NCBI RefSeq assembly: GCF_011405515.1
Contig: NZ_AP022671.1
Location: 3,534,001 to 3,598,000, forward strand
Direction: 5' to 3'
From: Nitrospira sp. KM1
GTDB taxonomy: Bacteria; Nitrospirota; Nitrospiria; Nitrospirales; Nitrospiraceae
DNA: 64,000 nt
The position numbers were made by a program, and so were the translations under genes. Positions 29,623 to 38,277 of this stretch are shown here, one piece after another; position 1 is the stretch's first letter, and every line of letters begins with the position of its first letter. Under the pieces are notes generated by a model. It did no database searches. It was not told the origin of the DNA and worked only from the letters and a program-made list of their open reading frames with translations.

Positions 29623-30078
29623 ATGCCGGGTGCCAACCGAATACTCTTACGAGTGTGGACGATGATCGTGGTGTTCGCGCTCCCAATGCCTCTCATGGCC
29701 GAAACCGTTCATCTGAAGCCCGGCCAATATGAGATCACGGTGCTCACGGAGGCGACGCCATACGGCAGCAAGGCTGCGCCTGACACCACAACCCGCTGTA
29801 TTCAAGCCGACGACCTGTCCAATCCGGACGCCGTGTTCAATTATTATTTCATGACCGGTTTCAAACCGAAACCCTCGAACAAGGTCTCGAACCTATCCAT
29901 GCAGAATGGGAAAGTCGGGTATGACGTGGAGGGACCCTACTCGAATACGCGCGTCGAGGGAACTACATCGGACACGGCCTTTTCCGCCGTTCGGAAAGCG
30001 AAGCCGAAATCGGGCAAAGGCGACCCCGTCACGATGAAGATCGAGGGCAAGCGCACGGGTGACTGCGCACACCAGTAA
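29623..30078 (+). CDS. DUF3617 family secreted protein
   Basis: 151 residues. The signal peptide ends at PLMAE, followed by HLKPGQYEITVLTEA, the conserved CIQADDLSNP after a Thr/Lys loop, and C-terminal DCAHQ. These are the features of DUF3617: a small periplasmic beta-sandwich with a PGxW/Y-x-x-T start and a C-terminal Cys pair that probably forms a disulfide. Function unknown. AGGAGAAGGA sits directly before the ATG. A TAAGAT hexamer at about 29578 may be the -10. It is divergent from the usp cluster. Confidence 0.8.
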   Translation: MPGANRILLRVWTMIVVFALPMPLMAETVHLKPGQYEITVLTEATPYGSKAAPDTTTRCIQADDLSNPDAVFNYYFMTGFKPKPSNKVSNLSMQNGKVGYDVEGPYSNTRVEGTTSDTAFSAVRKAKPKSGKGDPVTMKIEGKRTGDCAHQ

Positions 30079-30227: not shown

Positions 30228-32441
30228 TCAATTCGCCCAGAGGCGCCGGTACCATGTGCGTTGTTCCGGCAGTACCACGGCCGTGAGATTCATGTTTTTG
30301 CGGATGCCGCCGATATCCCGCCCGGTCAAGGTCGCCAGCGTCTGAGCTTCCCGCTCGTGGCGTTCGTGTAGGTGCTGTCGGTACGCGGTTGCAGCCGGAC
30401 ACTCATCCGCGCCCGTCCAGGGATGGCGCAACACATACCGAGCTTGAAAGTTGGATCGATCCGACGTTTCCTGAAAAATGAGATCTTCGGGAAAGTGGGC
30501 GGCATCATAGCGCACGTGCAGCCGCGTCAGGAAGACAGGCTGTACCATGGGCATGCCTTTGCCCGTTCGTCCGGTGGTGTCCTGCCAGAACACCCCGAGG
30601 CTCCGCAGTTCATCGGTGGAGAGCGGATCGGCAGCACAGGGATCGCACCAGTTCATATCCCACGCATACTCCAAGAATACGCCGCGCTTGCTCTCACGCC
30701 GTACTTGTTGGCTGAACATATCTCTGTAAAAATCCCCGAACGTGTCCTTTACAAAGAGCGGTAGTTCCTGCGCATCGGGCAAGCGCACGGTACGGTAATT
30801 TGTCGTTTCCACTCGCCCCTGTTTCGTCAGAAAGTAGGCGAAGAGTTCCTGCGGTCCGTCGGCGTTGACGGTCCCGAGGCGGATTGGCAGGACGAATTTA
30901 GGTGATTCAAAGGCGATCTGGAGCGGACGGAGATGCGTCAGGCCGAGCTTGGCCTGTTCTCCCAGATTGACTTTGGCAACGAAGAATTTCAGGTTTTGTT
31001 TCAGGTAGCTGTGTAAGACGGCTGAAGCGCCGTGAGGGATGCGATAGCCGTTTTCGGTGAGCCAGGTCTCAAGCCCCGCACTCTCCTTTCCCGACAAGAT
31101 GAGAATGTCGTATTCGCCGACGGTGTACCGGGCCTCGACCGTCACTCCGAGTGCACGATCACGCTCTCGGGTGGGGGATGCGGCAGGGGCCATGCTCTTC
31201 ATGGCATCCATCTTGCGTTCGAACAACTCATAGCGTGTGCAGGGGTTCTCGTCGAAGTATTCGACCAGCCGAGGGGCCGAATAGTCGGCCAGATGTTTGA
31301 TGACGGCTGGATTGCCCACATGAATCTGGTCCTTCTCCAAGACGCTCGGGACAGGCACGACCAGCGCGAATTCTTTCACGTCTCCACGAAAATCATTGGC
31401 CATGGTGAGCACGGTTTTGTCGTCATGGCGTGCGACGACGACCTCCGAGGCCTTGTTGAATAGCTTGGTATCGGCTTTGCCGACATAGAACCCACAAAAC
31501 GCCCAAGCAGGTGCGCTCCAGAACAGAAGACCGGAGCCGAACGTCATAAAACAGAGAATGGCTTTCGTCATAAGCACCTCCGTTGATGGTGAGGAAAGCG
31601 GGACAGCGAATGTCGGATTGATTGCGCCTGCCGATGGACGCGACCAGTCGTATCGCGAGCCAGGCAACAGACGATCAATGAACGGCACAAGAGGACAGCA
31701 GGCGATTAAGCCCCAGAGCAATCCATTGGAACGGTATAAGACAAATTGAACCGAAAGCGCGCTGACGGCCACGAGCAGTGAAAATATGATCCGGCCGGCG
31801 CGGGAATCAGGCGTCGTCTTGGGGTCGGTGATCATGAAAAACGAAAAGATGAGCAGAGTTGAGCTTTCGATCTGATGCAGCGGGATCGTGAGGGGATCGC
31901 CAAGCCACAGGGCGCGTGTTATCAGCAGTCCGGCGTAGAATCCCAGGAAAGACAGCGTCACGTCCGCCCGCACGGCTCGTGCGATCACGAGACTGCCCAT
32001 ACAGGCGATGAGAAGTCCGAGCCAGGCCACCTGCCCCCATTGGCCCGGCGAAATCCAGCCGATGCCGGCCGCGAGCACGACGATCAATGCAAAATTTGTC
32101 GGATTGAAGATGTGCTTGCCCTGCCGCCGGATGAGAAACTTGCTCGCAATAGCGACGCATGAGGCGAAGGCGACGGCAGGAAGATCGTTCGTGCGGAGGA
32201 AGATGCAAAGCCCGACGGCCGAGACGATCGCGCTCAACGGATCGAACGAGGGCAGCTTATACCATCGAGTGCCGGTATATTGCGTGAGGAGGGTGACGGT
32301 GAATGTAACGGCGATCTGAGCGATCGATACGTCGAAGTGCAGCCACAGAAGACCATACAGGAGCAGCGTCCCAAGGCTGGCGATTTGATAGATGCGGGGG
32401 TCGAAGGAAGAAAACCTGGACTTGATCTGATCGAGCGTCAT
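30228..32441 (-). CDS. in-frame fusion of an RnfD/UnbU-like membrane protein and a DUF2330 protein
   Basis: 737 residues reading through without a stop. Part 1 (residues 1 to about 290) is a polytopic RnfD/NqrB-like (UnbU) domain: IYQIASLGTLLLYGLLWL, GTRWYKLPSFDPLSAIVS, KHIFNPTNFALIVVLAA, SFFMITDPKTTPDS and IACCPLVPFIDRLLP. I see no flavinylation motif. Part 2 (about 290-737) starts with its own signal peptide, MTKAILCFMTFGSGLLFWSA then PAWAFCGFYVG, followed by a DUF2330 domain with ANDFRGDVKEFALVVPVP and LHVRYDAAHFPEDLIFQ. An internal ATG at 31571 has GGAGG five bases upstream, so DUF2330 may also be made alone. ATG 32441 is preferred over 32453 for its AGGTGCAGG. Confidence 0.72.
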   Translation of the reverse strand: MTLDQIKSRFSSFDPRIYQIASLGTLLLYGLLWLHFDVSIAQIAVTFTVTLLTQYTGTRWYKLPSFDPLSAIVSAVGLCIFLRTNDLPAVAFASCVAIASKFLIRRQGKHIFNPTNFALIVVLAAGIGWISPGQWGQVAWLGLLIACMGSLVIARAVRADVTLSFLGFYAGLLITRALWLGDPLTIPLHQIESSTLLIFSFFMITDPKTTPDSRAGRIIFSLLVAVSALSVQFVLYRSNGLLWGLIACCPLVPFIDRLLPGSRYDWSRPSAGAINPTFAVPLSSPSTEVLMTKAILCFMTFGSGLLFWSAPAWAFCGFYVGKADTKLFNKASEVVVARHDDKTVLTMANDFRGDVKEFALVVPVPSVLEKDQIHVGNPAVIKHLADYSAPRLVEYFDENPCTRYELFERKMDAMKSMAPAASPTRERDRALGVTVEARYTVGEYDILILSGKESAGLETWLTENGYRIPHGASAVLHSYLKQNLKFFVAKVNLGEQAKLGLTHLRPLQIAFESPKFVLPIRLGTVNADGPQELFAYFLTKQGRVETTNYRTVRLPDAQELPLFVKDTFGDFYRDMFSQQVRRESKRGVFLEYAWDMNWCDPCAADPLSTDELRSLGVFWQDTTGRTGKGMPMVQPVFLTRLHVRYDAAHFPEDLIFQETSDRSNFQARYVLRHPWTGADECPAATAYRQHLHERHEREAQTLATLTGRDIGGIRKNMNLTAVVLPEQRTWYRRLWAN
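31569..31581 (-). promoter_or_regulatory. internal ribosome binding site and ATG at the DUF2330 start
   Basis: On the minus strand GGAGG (31581-31577) precedes an ATG (31571-31569) by five bases, inside the RnfD-like/DUF2330 open frame. The codons after it encode a signal peptide that ends AWA-FC. The site is what a separate DUF2330 gene would need. The upstream frame has no stop before it. Confidence 0.6.
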
Positions 32442-32771
32442 CCTGCACCTCATGAATAGATGGCCTATTCACGGTATGGCGCCAGATGAGAGATCCTTTC
32501 AGGCGAAAAGTAGGTCTGGCAGAGAGCGCGACCTCTCTCACCTCCTGGAGCGACCCTTCGAGACTCGCCGCGGCGGAAACCTTCAGAAATTCCCTCGCGC
32601 TAGCATAAAAAAGATCATCATTGCCTGCTATGAAGACAAAACTCATGCGAGCTTCTGAAAGAAGGAATCCAAGGCACGATTGACCTCATATCCAAACGTG
32701 TGCGAGCGGCATCTCAATAAACATAATCTGAACGAGTTGCAGAACTGTTGATCCGATAAATAAACATTCTG
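32442..32771. other. 330-bp intergenic region upstream of the RnfD-DUF2330 gene
   Basis: Lies between the stop of the LigB-type ligase (32772) and the start of the RnfD-DUF2330 fusion, both on the minus strand. It is visibly more AT-rich than the genes around it, with short homopolymer runs near 32600-32620 and 32755-32770. I see no ORF with a ribosome site, no RNA-like fold and no repeat. It most likely carries the promoter of the fusion gene; I cannot point to a convincing -10. Confidence 0.4.
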
Positions 32772-35946: not shown

Positions 35947-38277
35947 ATGAAGCCGGCGAGTGATTCTCTCGACTTTGTGACGATCGACGGTCTGCTGGTC
36001 TACGGAGAGCAGTTCTCGCAACGGCAGCCGCAAGATGGCATCTTGTTGCCGGGCGTTTCCGCTCGTGAGGGGAACCGGTCTGAACGCGCCCGTTCTGCCA
36101 TGAGCAAGATCGTGGCGTTCGTGCAGGGTGCCCGAAGCGGATTTTCAGGAGCCGACGTCTACCGAAAGGCCCGGCAGGCTATTCTTGATGAAACGTGTGC
36201 AGGCGATGCGCTCGTATTTTATGCGGCTTGGAACAAGCTCCTTGCCGAAGGGCAGCTCCAGCCTCTGTTGCGCGCGCCCATTGGATCCGTGCAGAAACCT
36301 CTCCACCGCCGTCCGGTGGCCATCGTGCCGAGGTCGCAACTCACCCCGCAACTGGCCGAGGGGCGTATTGTGCTCGATCTGGGAGACGAGAGGTTCTGGC
36401 TGTTACCGCGTGATCTCGCCGGCCGCACGCTGCTGTTTACCATGCGGCACGGTATTTCACAGGTGGAAAGCAAGACTCACCGCGTCGGCCGGCGTTTGAT
36501 GAATCAATTGGACGGGCAACGGGGAGTACCGCGGGCGGACGCCGTCGGTACGGCGCTGGCGCGCATGCTGGGCGTAGTCGGCCAGCAATTGGATTTTCTC
36601 CACCTCTCCAACTATCTCGACCCCCGCACGTTTCTCCATTTCGTCAGCGTGAGTCCAAACACGCGCCAACTCTTCGACCGCGTGAGCGCCGCGTTGACGA
36701 AAGATGGGCCTCTCACACATGAGCCGGTGCAGGTGTCGGCCCTCGAGTCGTCGGATTTTGGCTGGATCACCGGCATCGAGAAAACGGTCGAGCTGCAGGA
36801 ACTGGCCAAGGCGCTGGGGGTTGAGACGGCCATTGCCAAACGGCTGATCAAGGATCCGCTGTACTGCTATCCCGGCGGGAATTCGTTTTTCGATCTTTAT
36901 GTAGATGTGATCGACGGGTTGCACAAACTGGGTGAGGCCAATCGAGGGAAGGTCGCCTGCCTCTATACCCATAGCTCCACCCTGCGCGCACTGATGATTT
37001 ATCTGGATCCCCGTCCGTTTCACGAGGCCTTCACCGAGTTCAGCGATTATAAGGAGAGTCAGGACAATGTCGTCCTCCTCACCGTGGAGAACGGCCGATT
37101 GTCCGGGTATTCCACCGCCGTCGGGTTATCAGAGCGTGAAAAGGCCACCCGTGATTCATGGACCGTCGTGGAACGTGTGCGGAAGGACCGGGTGAATTTG
37201 AAACCGGGCCAGATCAAACGGATCGTCGCCCTGGTGTCCGGAGGAGATTTTGCCGGCGCAGGCGCCGCGTTGAAAGAGCTGCGGGCAACGGGAAAGCGGT
37301 TCGGCCTCGACGTTCACTTCGTCCGGCACGGATTTCTTGGCCTGGCCAACAATTGGATCGAACCGGTGAGTGAAGACGACACGCGCGGCATGAGCAGCCA
37401 TGCGAGCAGTCCCATCGGCAGCAGCCGCTTCGAGGATTTCAAAGACGAACAGGTTCAGCAGGCCGCCATCCGCAATCTCGAACGGTTCTTGACGGATGCG
37501 GCGCTCGTCGTCTTGGGAGGGGACGGCAGCCTGCGAGGCGCCCGCGCCATTTACGAAGCCTTCGGTGTTCAGGTCGTTGGCCTTCCCGGCACCATTGATA
37601 ACAATATCGAGGGCACGACCTCGTTAGGCTTCCATTCGGCCATTGCCCTGGCTGACCAGTCGATCGAGTCTCTCAAAGCCACCAGCTCTGCCATGGGAAG
37701 TGTCTTCTTTGTCGAGGTCATGGGAGCCGGATCAGGTCACTTGGCGCTGGCCTGCGCGTACCAGGCGAGAGCGGAGGGACTGCTTGTCAACGAACATCCG
37801 GATCCGGATGCCTATATCGACGAAGCCATTCTCGGCACATTGAAGCGGACACTGGGAGTGCCAAACAAGAGTCACTTGTTCGTCGTGGCCGAGCGCACTC
37901 CGCACCGCCATCATCGCGAAGGCGGTGTGCATGGGCTTGTCGATTACGTCGCCGGTGTCATTGCCGAGTGGCCTGAACGGCACGCGCGCCCGGGACAATA
38001 CCCGTTGACGCTGGCGACCAAGGCGACGATCCTCGGGCACACGCTGCGTGGCGCGCCTCCCACGCCGGATGATAAGGCGATCGGACAGCACCTGGCCTAC
38101 GAAACCGTGCGCCGTCTCGTGGAATGCCCCGAAGATGTTGTTGGCTGCATGTTGGCGTATCGTGAACGTGGCATCATCGAACCGGTGGCCCTTCATGCGG
38201 TCACATCCAAACAATTTGATTGGGACGTATTCGCGAGAATGCACGGCAGCGAAAAAGTCGTAAAGCCGGTTTTATGA
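35947..38277 (+). CDS. FBPase-2-like histidine phosphatase fused to 6-phosphofructokinase
   Basis: 776 residues, three parts. Residues 1-155 have no family I know; about 55-110 looks like a helical, winged-helix-like module. Residues 160-395 are a histidine phosphatase: LLFTMRHG (R167, H168), DPLYCYPGGNSFFDLY resembling the bisphosphatase half of eukaryotic PFK-2/FBPase-2, and the second catalytic His at YTHSST (H342). Residues 420-776 are a PfkA-type kinase: ALVSGGDFAGA, LGGDGSLRGA (GDGS indicates ATP rather than PPi), LPGTIDNN (catalytic D551), FVVAE. Departures: MGR is MGA (592-594) and GFDTA is GFHSA. Normal bacterial PFKs are about 320-360 residues and lack the phosphatase. Confidence 0.82.
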   Translation: MKPASDSLDFVTIDGLLVYGEQFSQRQPQDGILLPGVSAREGNRSERARSAMSKIVAFVQGARSGFSGADVYRKARQAILDETCAGDALVFYAAWNKLLAEGQLQPLLRAPIGSVQKPLHRRPVAIVPRSQLTPQLAEGRIVLDLGDERFWLLPRDLAGRTLLFTMRHGISQVESKTHRVGRRLMNQLDGQRGVPRADAVGTALARMLGVVGQQLDFLHLSNYLDPRTFLHFVSVSPNTRQLFDRVSAALTKDGPLTHEPVQVSALESSDFGWITGIEKTVELQELAKALGVETAIAKRLIKDPLYCYPGGNSFFDLYVDVIDGLHKLGEANRGKVACLYTHSSTLRALMIYLDPRPFHEAFTEFSDYKESQDNVVLLTVENGRLSGYSTAVGLSEREKATRDSWTVVERVRKDRVNLKPGQIKRIVALVSGGDFAGAGAALKELRATGKRFGLDVHFVRHGFLGLANNWIEPVSEDDTRGMSSHASSPIGSSRFEDFKDEQVQQAAIRNLERFLTDAALVVLGGDGSLRGARAIYEAFGVQVVGLPGTIDNNIEGTTSLGFHSAIALADQSIESLKATSSAMGSVFFVEVMGAGSGHLALACAYQARAEGLLVNEHPDPDAYIDEAILGTLKRTLGVPNKSHLFVVAERTPHRHHREGGVHGLVDYVAGVIAEWPERHARPGQYPLTLATKATILGHTLRGAPPTPDDKAIGQHLAYETVRRLVECPEDVVGCMLAYRERGIIEPVALHAVTSKQFDWDVFARMHGSEKVVKPVL

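Follow-up and report, generated by a model that had tools for sequence, protein, structure and literature searches.

Recurrent in-frame fusion of RnfD-like and DUF2330 genes in the family of Nitrospira sp. KM1, with a probably selected internal start

Introduction

The window (the whole 64,000-nucleotide stretch of Nitrospira sp. KM1 DNA analysed here) contains a gene in which an RnfD-like membrane protein and a DUF2330 protein are joined in frame, and this locus raises the question of whether such a gene yields one protein or two: a fusion, and a free DUF2330 protein started inside the longer frame. A first-pass annotation, made from the sequence of this stretch, had proposed that the modules usually occur as independent proteins, that the cell may make both products, and that the join could reflect a recent loss of a stop codon. 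Here, we compare the junction across relatives and ask which of these proposals the comparison supports.

Results

A stop-free frame with an intact internal start

The two modules share one stop-free frame, as the first-pass annotation had read it, on the minus strand, which that annotation did not name; the plus strand there is stop-rich. The ORF (30228..32453) has 741 codons counted from its first ATG and 737 counted from the likely start at 32441 (Table 1). Pfam NQR2_RnfD_RnfE matches residues 135-263 above its cut-off of 27.7 bits, covering only profile positions 166-290 of 296, and Pfam DUF2330 matches residues 315-660 with 265.9 bits (gathering cut-off 24.7). In the window's genome (4.5 Mb, single contig), the fused ORF is the sole match to either family. 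The internal Shine-Dalgarno (SD) sequence, ATG, and signal peptide described earlier are indeed intact: the join reads ACGGAGGTGCTTATGACG, with GGAGGTG at 31581-31575 and ATG at 31571-31569, and the ATG is followed by the signal peptide MTKAILCFMTFGSGLLFWSAPAWA, then FCG, with AWA before FCG as the cleavage motif.

Table 1. Features of the fused gene, in window coordinates
Feature	Coordinates	Strand	Basis or remark
Fused ORF, 737 codons + stop	30228..32441	(-)	In-frame ATG also 4 codons upstream, at 32453
NqrB/RnfD-fold membrane domain, residues 1-266	31644..32441	(-)	Pfam PF03116, 44.5 bits; RnfD fold match; model helices
Variable 72-nt linker, whose length sets the frame	31572..31643	(-)	74-116 nt in 34 measured overlapping relatives
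Internal Shine-Dalgarno sequence GGAGGTG	31575..31581	(-)	Sequence; SD matches in fused loci; codon conservation
Internal ATG, predicted start of DUF2330 preprotein	31569..31571	(-)	ATG in 27/27 fused family loci, 35/35 overall
Signal peptide, ending A-W-A before FCG	31500..31571	(-)	AxA-type site in relatives
Mature DUF2330 domain, 423 aa	30231..31499	(-)	Pfam PF10092, ~265 bits; model pLDDT 78

Nearby on the plus strand, a gene for a DUF3617 protein (29623-30078; 30.5 bits) is convergent with the fused gene. Farther away, 35947-38277 (+) encodes a protein of 776 aa. Its residues 425-722 form a phosphofructokinase domain; the N-terminal half is long and has no Pfam match, and a TMRHG stretch in it resembles, by eye, a histidine phosphatase motif.

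Fused and separate states recur within the family

Among 175 genomes of the family, 82 have matches, and we classified the junction in 68, leaving out four in which one half is missing from the contig (G076, G088, G099, and G165) and 10 with fragments or remnants only. The junction is fused in 27 and separate in 41. Separate genes overlap by 4 nt in 34 loci (ATGA; GTGA in one) and by 1 nt in two, which gives a stop/start overlap in 36 of 41, a stop that is bypassed in the window. The remaining five are irregular: G003 and G006 scored as gaps because additional sequence separates the signal peptide from the former junction start; G065 has a 34-nt gap; and G104 and G093 have broken upstream genes. 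The modules are thus not independent proteins elsewhere, as had been supposed; their genes stand side by side as a conserved pair, in the family mostly with an ATGA overlap. Nor is the fusion peculiar to the window's genome. The alternative that all relatives carry a stop, and that its lack here is an error, fails with the 26 other fused family genomes, and the fused frame, because it recurs, is no assembly error of the window.

Both states occur in the window's own genus (fused, G000 and G001; separate, G003, G005, and G006). The three separate loci there (L124, L126, and L125, respectively) carry extra sequence between the junction ATG and the DUF2330 signal peptide, and that of G003 and G006 includes a common stretch resembling an inserted element. 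Other family genomes (L012/L020 of G023, and fragments in G069, G186, G188, G133, and G192) retain nothing but short pieces from the DUF2330 end; several of these contain stops, which looks like decay of the unit.

On a protein tree (n = 72), at least 10 changes between the fused and separate states are needed, six of them forced by strongly supported branches; these counts give no direction. Overlap is the likelier older state, since the 4-nt arrangement is shared by Acidobacteriota and the order of the Thiothrix locus (6 of 19 separate loci).

Linker indels set the frame

We measured the linker from a conserved RYxW motif to the DUF2330 start. Its length is 2 mod 3 in all 34 measured overlapping relatives (two of the 34 ATGA rows, and G093, lack the anchor) and 0 mod 3 in all 27 fused loci, the latter being required by fusion. 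Relative to the nearest measured separate row, the net linker change in fused loci ranges from -29 to +31 nt and equals 1 mod 3 at all 27, as the definition of fused implies. G123 and G102 differ from their nearest separate rows by a single base, located between the SD sequence and the ATG in G123 and before the SD sequence in G102. The window's linker lacks stretches that are present in separate members of its genus, and within a 16-member fused clade linker lengths are 87, 90, 120, or 123 nt, with the frame open in all members. The recent stop-codon loss that had been suggested is not borne out: linker lengths indicate indels, by which the upstream frame slid, and we reject a point mutation of the stop.

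Distribution beyond the family

Fusion is frequent in some groups and was not seen in others. The 295-genome sample of the window's phylum contains a further fused case, G293, from a different family. In Acidobacteriota (199 genomes), 14 genomes match and nine have both parts, four of them fused; of the 63 genomes in the order of the Thiothrix locus, 18 give matches, and the single fused one has undetermined bases close to the join. The loci read outside the family were drawn from every Acidobacteriota genome with both parts apart from G405 (eight of eight) and, for the Thiothrix order, from an author-chosen 11 of the 17 matching genomes apart from G404 (12 loci). In a cyanobacterial order (120 genomes sampled), 74 genomes match at E 1e-30, and the whole-span matches listed (n = 15) include no fusion, each having a stop; fusion is accordingly not generally required. 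An apparent "same frame" relation of cyanobacterial pairs was set aside because the ranking favors one-frame pairs. Several cyanobacterial relatives (L107, L109, and others, in G505, G450, and G488) have at least two tandem DUF2330 copies behind the RnfD-like gene.

The internal SD sequence and ATG are conserved in fused genes

An ATG with an SD match of at least 6 nt is present at the junction of 27 of 27 fused family loci. Every one of the 35 fused loci (27 in the family and eight outside: L174, L061, L177, L178, L179, L068, L069, and L090) has a junction ATG preceded by 5 nt or more of SD match. The same holds for 28 of the 474 remaining in-frame ATGs in these genes. The comparison carries a small bias, since the junction value is the best among ATGs within a 12-45 codon span.

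Codon choice points the same way. Pooled fused genes encode Glu by GAG at 461 of 927 codons and Lys by AAG at 482 of 776, yet all 16 members of the fused clade use AAG and GAG as their SD codons. Codon-invariant columns make up 27 of 397 in this clade (invariant residues with synonymous choice), the SD codons are the only adjacent codon-invariant pair of 249, and fourfold-site identity is 0.59. The Val at -2 has the highest GTT share among 31 Val columns. Within subclades the codon test is weaker (adjacent invariant pairs 36/377 in A and 14/323 in B), and it would lose force if the clade contained several independent fusions. In G123, the same eight SD bases are kept in another frame, where they encode QRRF instead of KEV. 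Predicted accessibility of the SD sequence in the mRNA exceeds the control only slightly (0.446 vs. 0.397).

Protein sequence does not explain the retention of the SD sequence and ATG in fused loci. This retention, together with invariant SD codons despite diverged silent sites, suggests that the internal start is probably selected.

All 27 fused family loci and all 41 separate ones have AxA-like residues at the -3/-1 positions of the signal peptide. Since this motif is intact in every fused family locus, the fused precursor may also be cleaved there. By analogy with NqrB/RnfD proteins, the upstream helix bundle is expected to have its C-terminus in the cytoplasm; the internal signal peptide would then run outward from it and carry DUF2330 outward in the fusion.

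The membrane part resembles RnfD in fold and is an orphan

A model of the membrane part (residues 4-275) aligns with RnfD 8rbq_D at Z 22.4 (rmsd 3.9, 251 residues aligned), with NqrB chains at Z ~20 and the next unrelated row at Z 12.6. The AlphaFold model of the whole fusion (pLDDT 54.7; blocks of the membrane part mostly 52-91) is too weak to speak to contact between the parts. The membrane part has the fold common to the RnfD/NqrB subunits of Rnf and Na+-NQR, but it lies far below the NCBIfam rnfD cut-off (TIGR01946, 207 bits; fusion 29.6 bits, N-terminal part 32). RnfD carries an S/TGAT motif for covalent flavin attachment; this motif is present in none of the 68 family RnfD-like sequences. 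The Rnf-Nqr partner family PF02508 has no match in the window's genome, whereas 4 of 14 control genomes are positive. By these score, motif, and partner tests, the membrane part is predicted to be no working RnfD.

Among 280 neighboring ORFs at 29 loci, the pair itself is present in 28 of 29, and the next cluster occurs in 10 loci, all Nitrospira; besides the pair, no neighbor common across the surveyed taxa was found. Absence of a common neighbor indicates that the RnfD-like and DUF2330 proteins form a unit of their own. Searches of the literature found no paper on DUF2330 and nothing relevant on UnbU. According to parts of PMC10666635, overlapping gene pairs are enriched in complex subunits; by analogy, a complex of a membrane protein with a secreted protein would be the likeliest function.

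A possible resemblance of the DUF2330 model to P35/P49

All 56 aligned members match Pfam DUF2330. The 56 sequences contain an invariant Cys87 followed by a variable loop, which in the model is a low-confidence segment (residues 90-120), and in 98% the second residue of the mature protein is Cys. The model of the mature domain aligns with baculovirus P35 at Z 11.1 (VIA; rmsd 4.8, 225 aligned; next unrelated 7.7), and in a Foldseek viral library its top four matches are P35/P49, with E 8.2e-5 to 9e-3 and low TM-scores of 0.24-0.35. A Foldseek search of the PDB with this model gave no match at E 0.001, a PDB sequence search gave nothing relevant, a profile search of PDB chains to E 10 gave no P35 chain, and the 19 Pfam families listed for the 56 members to E 10 do not include P35. 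P35 acts through a reactive-site loop and its amino terminus (passages of PMC3375223). No bacterial P35 relative is reported in those passages or in the titles and abstract openings of the literature searched.

By two structure programs, the DUF2330 model has a tentative fold similarity to the baculovirus caspase inhibitors, whereas DUF2330 has no sequence match to them and is a secreted bacterial protein, for which an inhibitor role would be putative. We treat the model-based likeness as a lead only. A speculative extension, which we consider a long shot, is that DUF2330 is a secreted bacterial protease inhibitor of P35/P49 fold with a bait loop, acting outside the cytoplasm and tethered to, or passed on by, a cofactor-less NqrB/RnfD scaffold, with one mRNA giving a membrane-linked and a free copy and with toggling between overlap and fusion setting their ratio.

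Discussion

We consider it fairly likely that the gene gives a fused precursor and, through the internal start, a free secreted DUF2330 protein, and that it represents the fused state of a two-gene unit. Of the readings considered, the two-product proposal of the first-pass annotation is the best, and it is backed by conservation at the nucleotide level within the fused ORF. The starting unit would be a conserved gene pair that encodes a secreted DUF2330 protein and a membrane protein of NqrB/RnfD fold, the latter an orphan. In the separate, ATGA-overlapping state of this pair, ribosomes that terminate at the end of the first gene would reinitiate on the next one. Indels in the linker (net +1 mod 3) would slide the first frame into the second and so remove the stop from the path. 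Some ribosomes would then make the fused precursor, and others would start anew at the retained SD sequence and the ATG at 31571 to make the free preprotein. In the fusion, the signal peptide would carry DUF2330 outward after the helix bundle, and signal peptidase may cut it, which would give nearly the same mature proteins as the separate genes; the two proteins may act together. Elongating ribosomes could block the internal site, which counts against a dual start, as does the barely raised SD accessibility.

An unlikely alternative to two starts is that all DUF2330 comes from the fusion, cut at its internal signal peptide by signal peptidase I, with the internal start a relic or weakly used. 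The AxA-type site of all fused family loci agrees with this, as does the frequent interchange of states, expected if the mature products are alike; yet a relic should decay, and the ATG and SD sequence persist at every fused locus, with SD codons conserved at the nucleotide level in the fused clade against a background of diverged fourfold sites. If, instead, the uncut signal peptide were a membrane anchor and the full-length protein the working form, one could understand that all 16 clade members keep an open frame despite their differing linkers. We find this improbable, as the cleavage motif is equally well kept in fused and separate genes and close relatives work with separate genes.

The position of the SD sequence, between a multi-helix domain and a signal peptide, would also suit a ribosome pause that aids membrane insertion and involves no start, but this seems very improbable to us given an ATG at start-like spacing in 35 of 35 fused loci and the use of the same SD sequence by the separate genes. 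Finally, sequencing error or a one-off recent loss of the stop is scarcely credible: 27 fused family genomes and eight fused loci outside the family, with differing linker changes, stand against it. It has no support for the window, where the fused relatives G021 and G001 refute it; G102, with its one-base linker difference, could alone be such a case.

Fusion of the pair is recurrent, probably selected, and no accident. The many changes between overlap and fusion in one family amount to a natural replicate experiment in which a coupled gene pair becomes one gene, and the internal start seems selected even after the stop is gone. Annotation as a single long protein can hide a second secreted product, and gene pairs with an internal signal peptide may fuse near-neutrally. 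The locus further joins two functionally uncharacterized families into a single unit.

Three known systems bear on the arrangement. FbcH of Bradyrhizobium is a cytochrome b/c1 precursor, a polyprotein cut at an internal signal peptide. Like FbcH, the window's gene places a polytopic membrane protein, a signal peptide, and an exported domain one after another in a single frame; it differs in having no shown redox subunits and in a conserved internal SD sequence and ATG that suggest a second route. A literature search for this precedent did not find it. The separate relatives, with their ATGA and 1-nt overlaps, resemble coupled overlapping pairs that use termination-reinitiation, as described in parts of PMC10666635. 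The fused ORF differs from these: translation bypasses the stop, the start is enclosed in a longer ORF, and ribosomes thus have no termination event at the join from which to reinitiate. In this respect it is closer to internal in-frame initiation, for example that of Cas11b (PMC11899642), where, as predicted here, a second product comes from a start inside a longer frame. In the window, that frame contains an SD sequence and start that, by the SD comparison and codon test, are conserved beyond protein coding. By comparison with the Cas11b type, the inner product here would have evolved separately and be secreted by means of its own signal peptide, and the outer frame has come about by repeated fusion.
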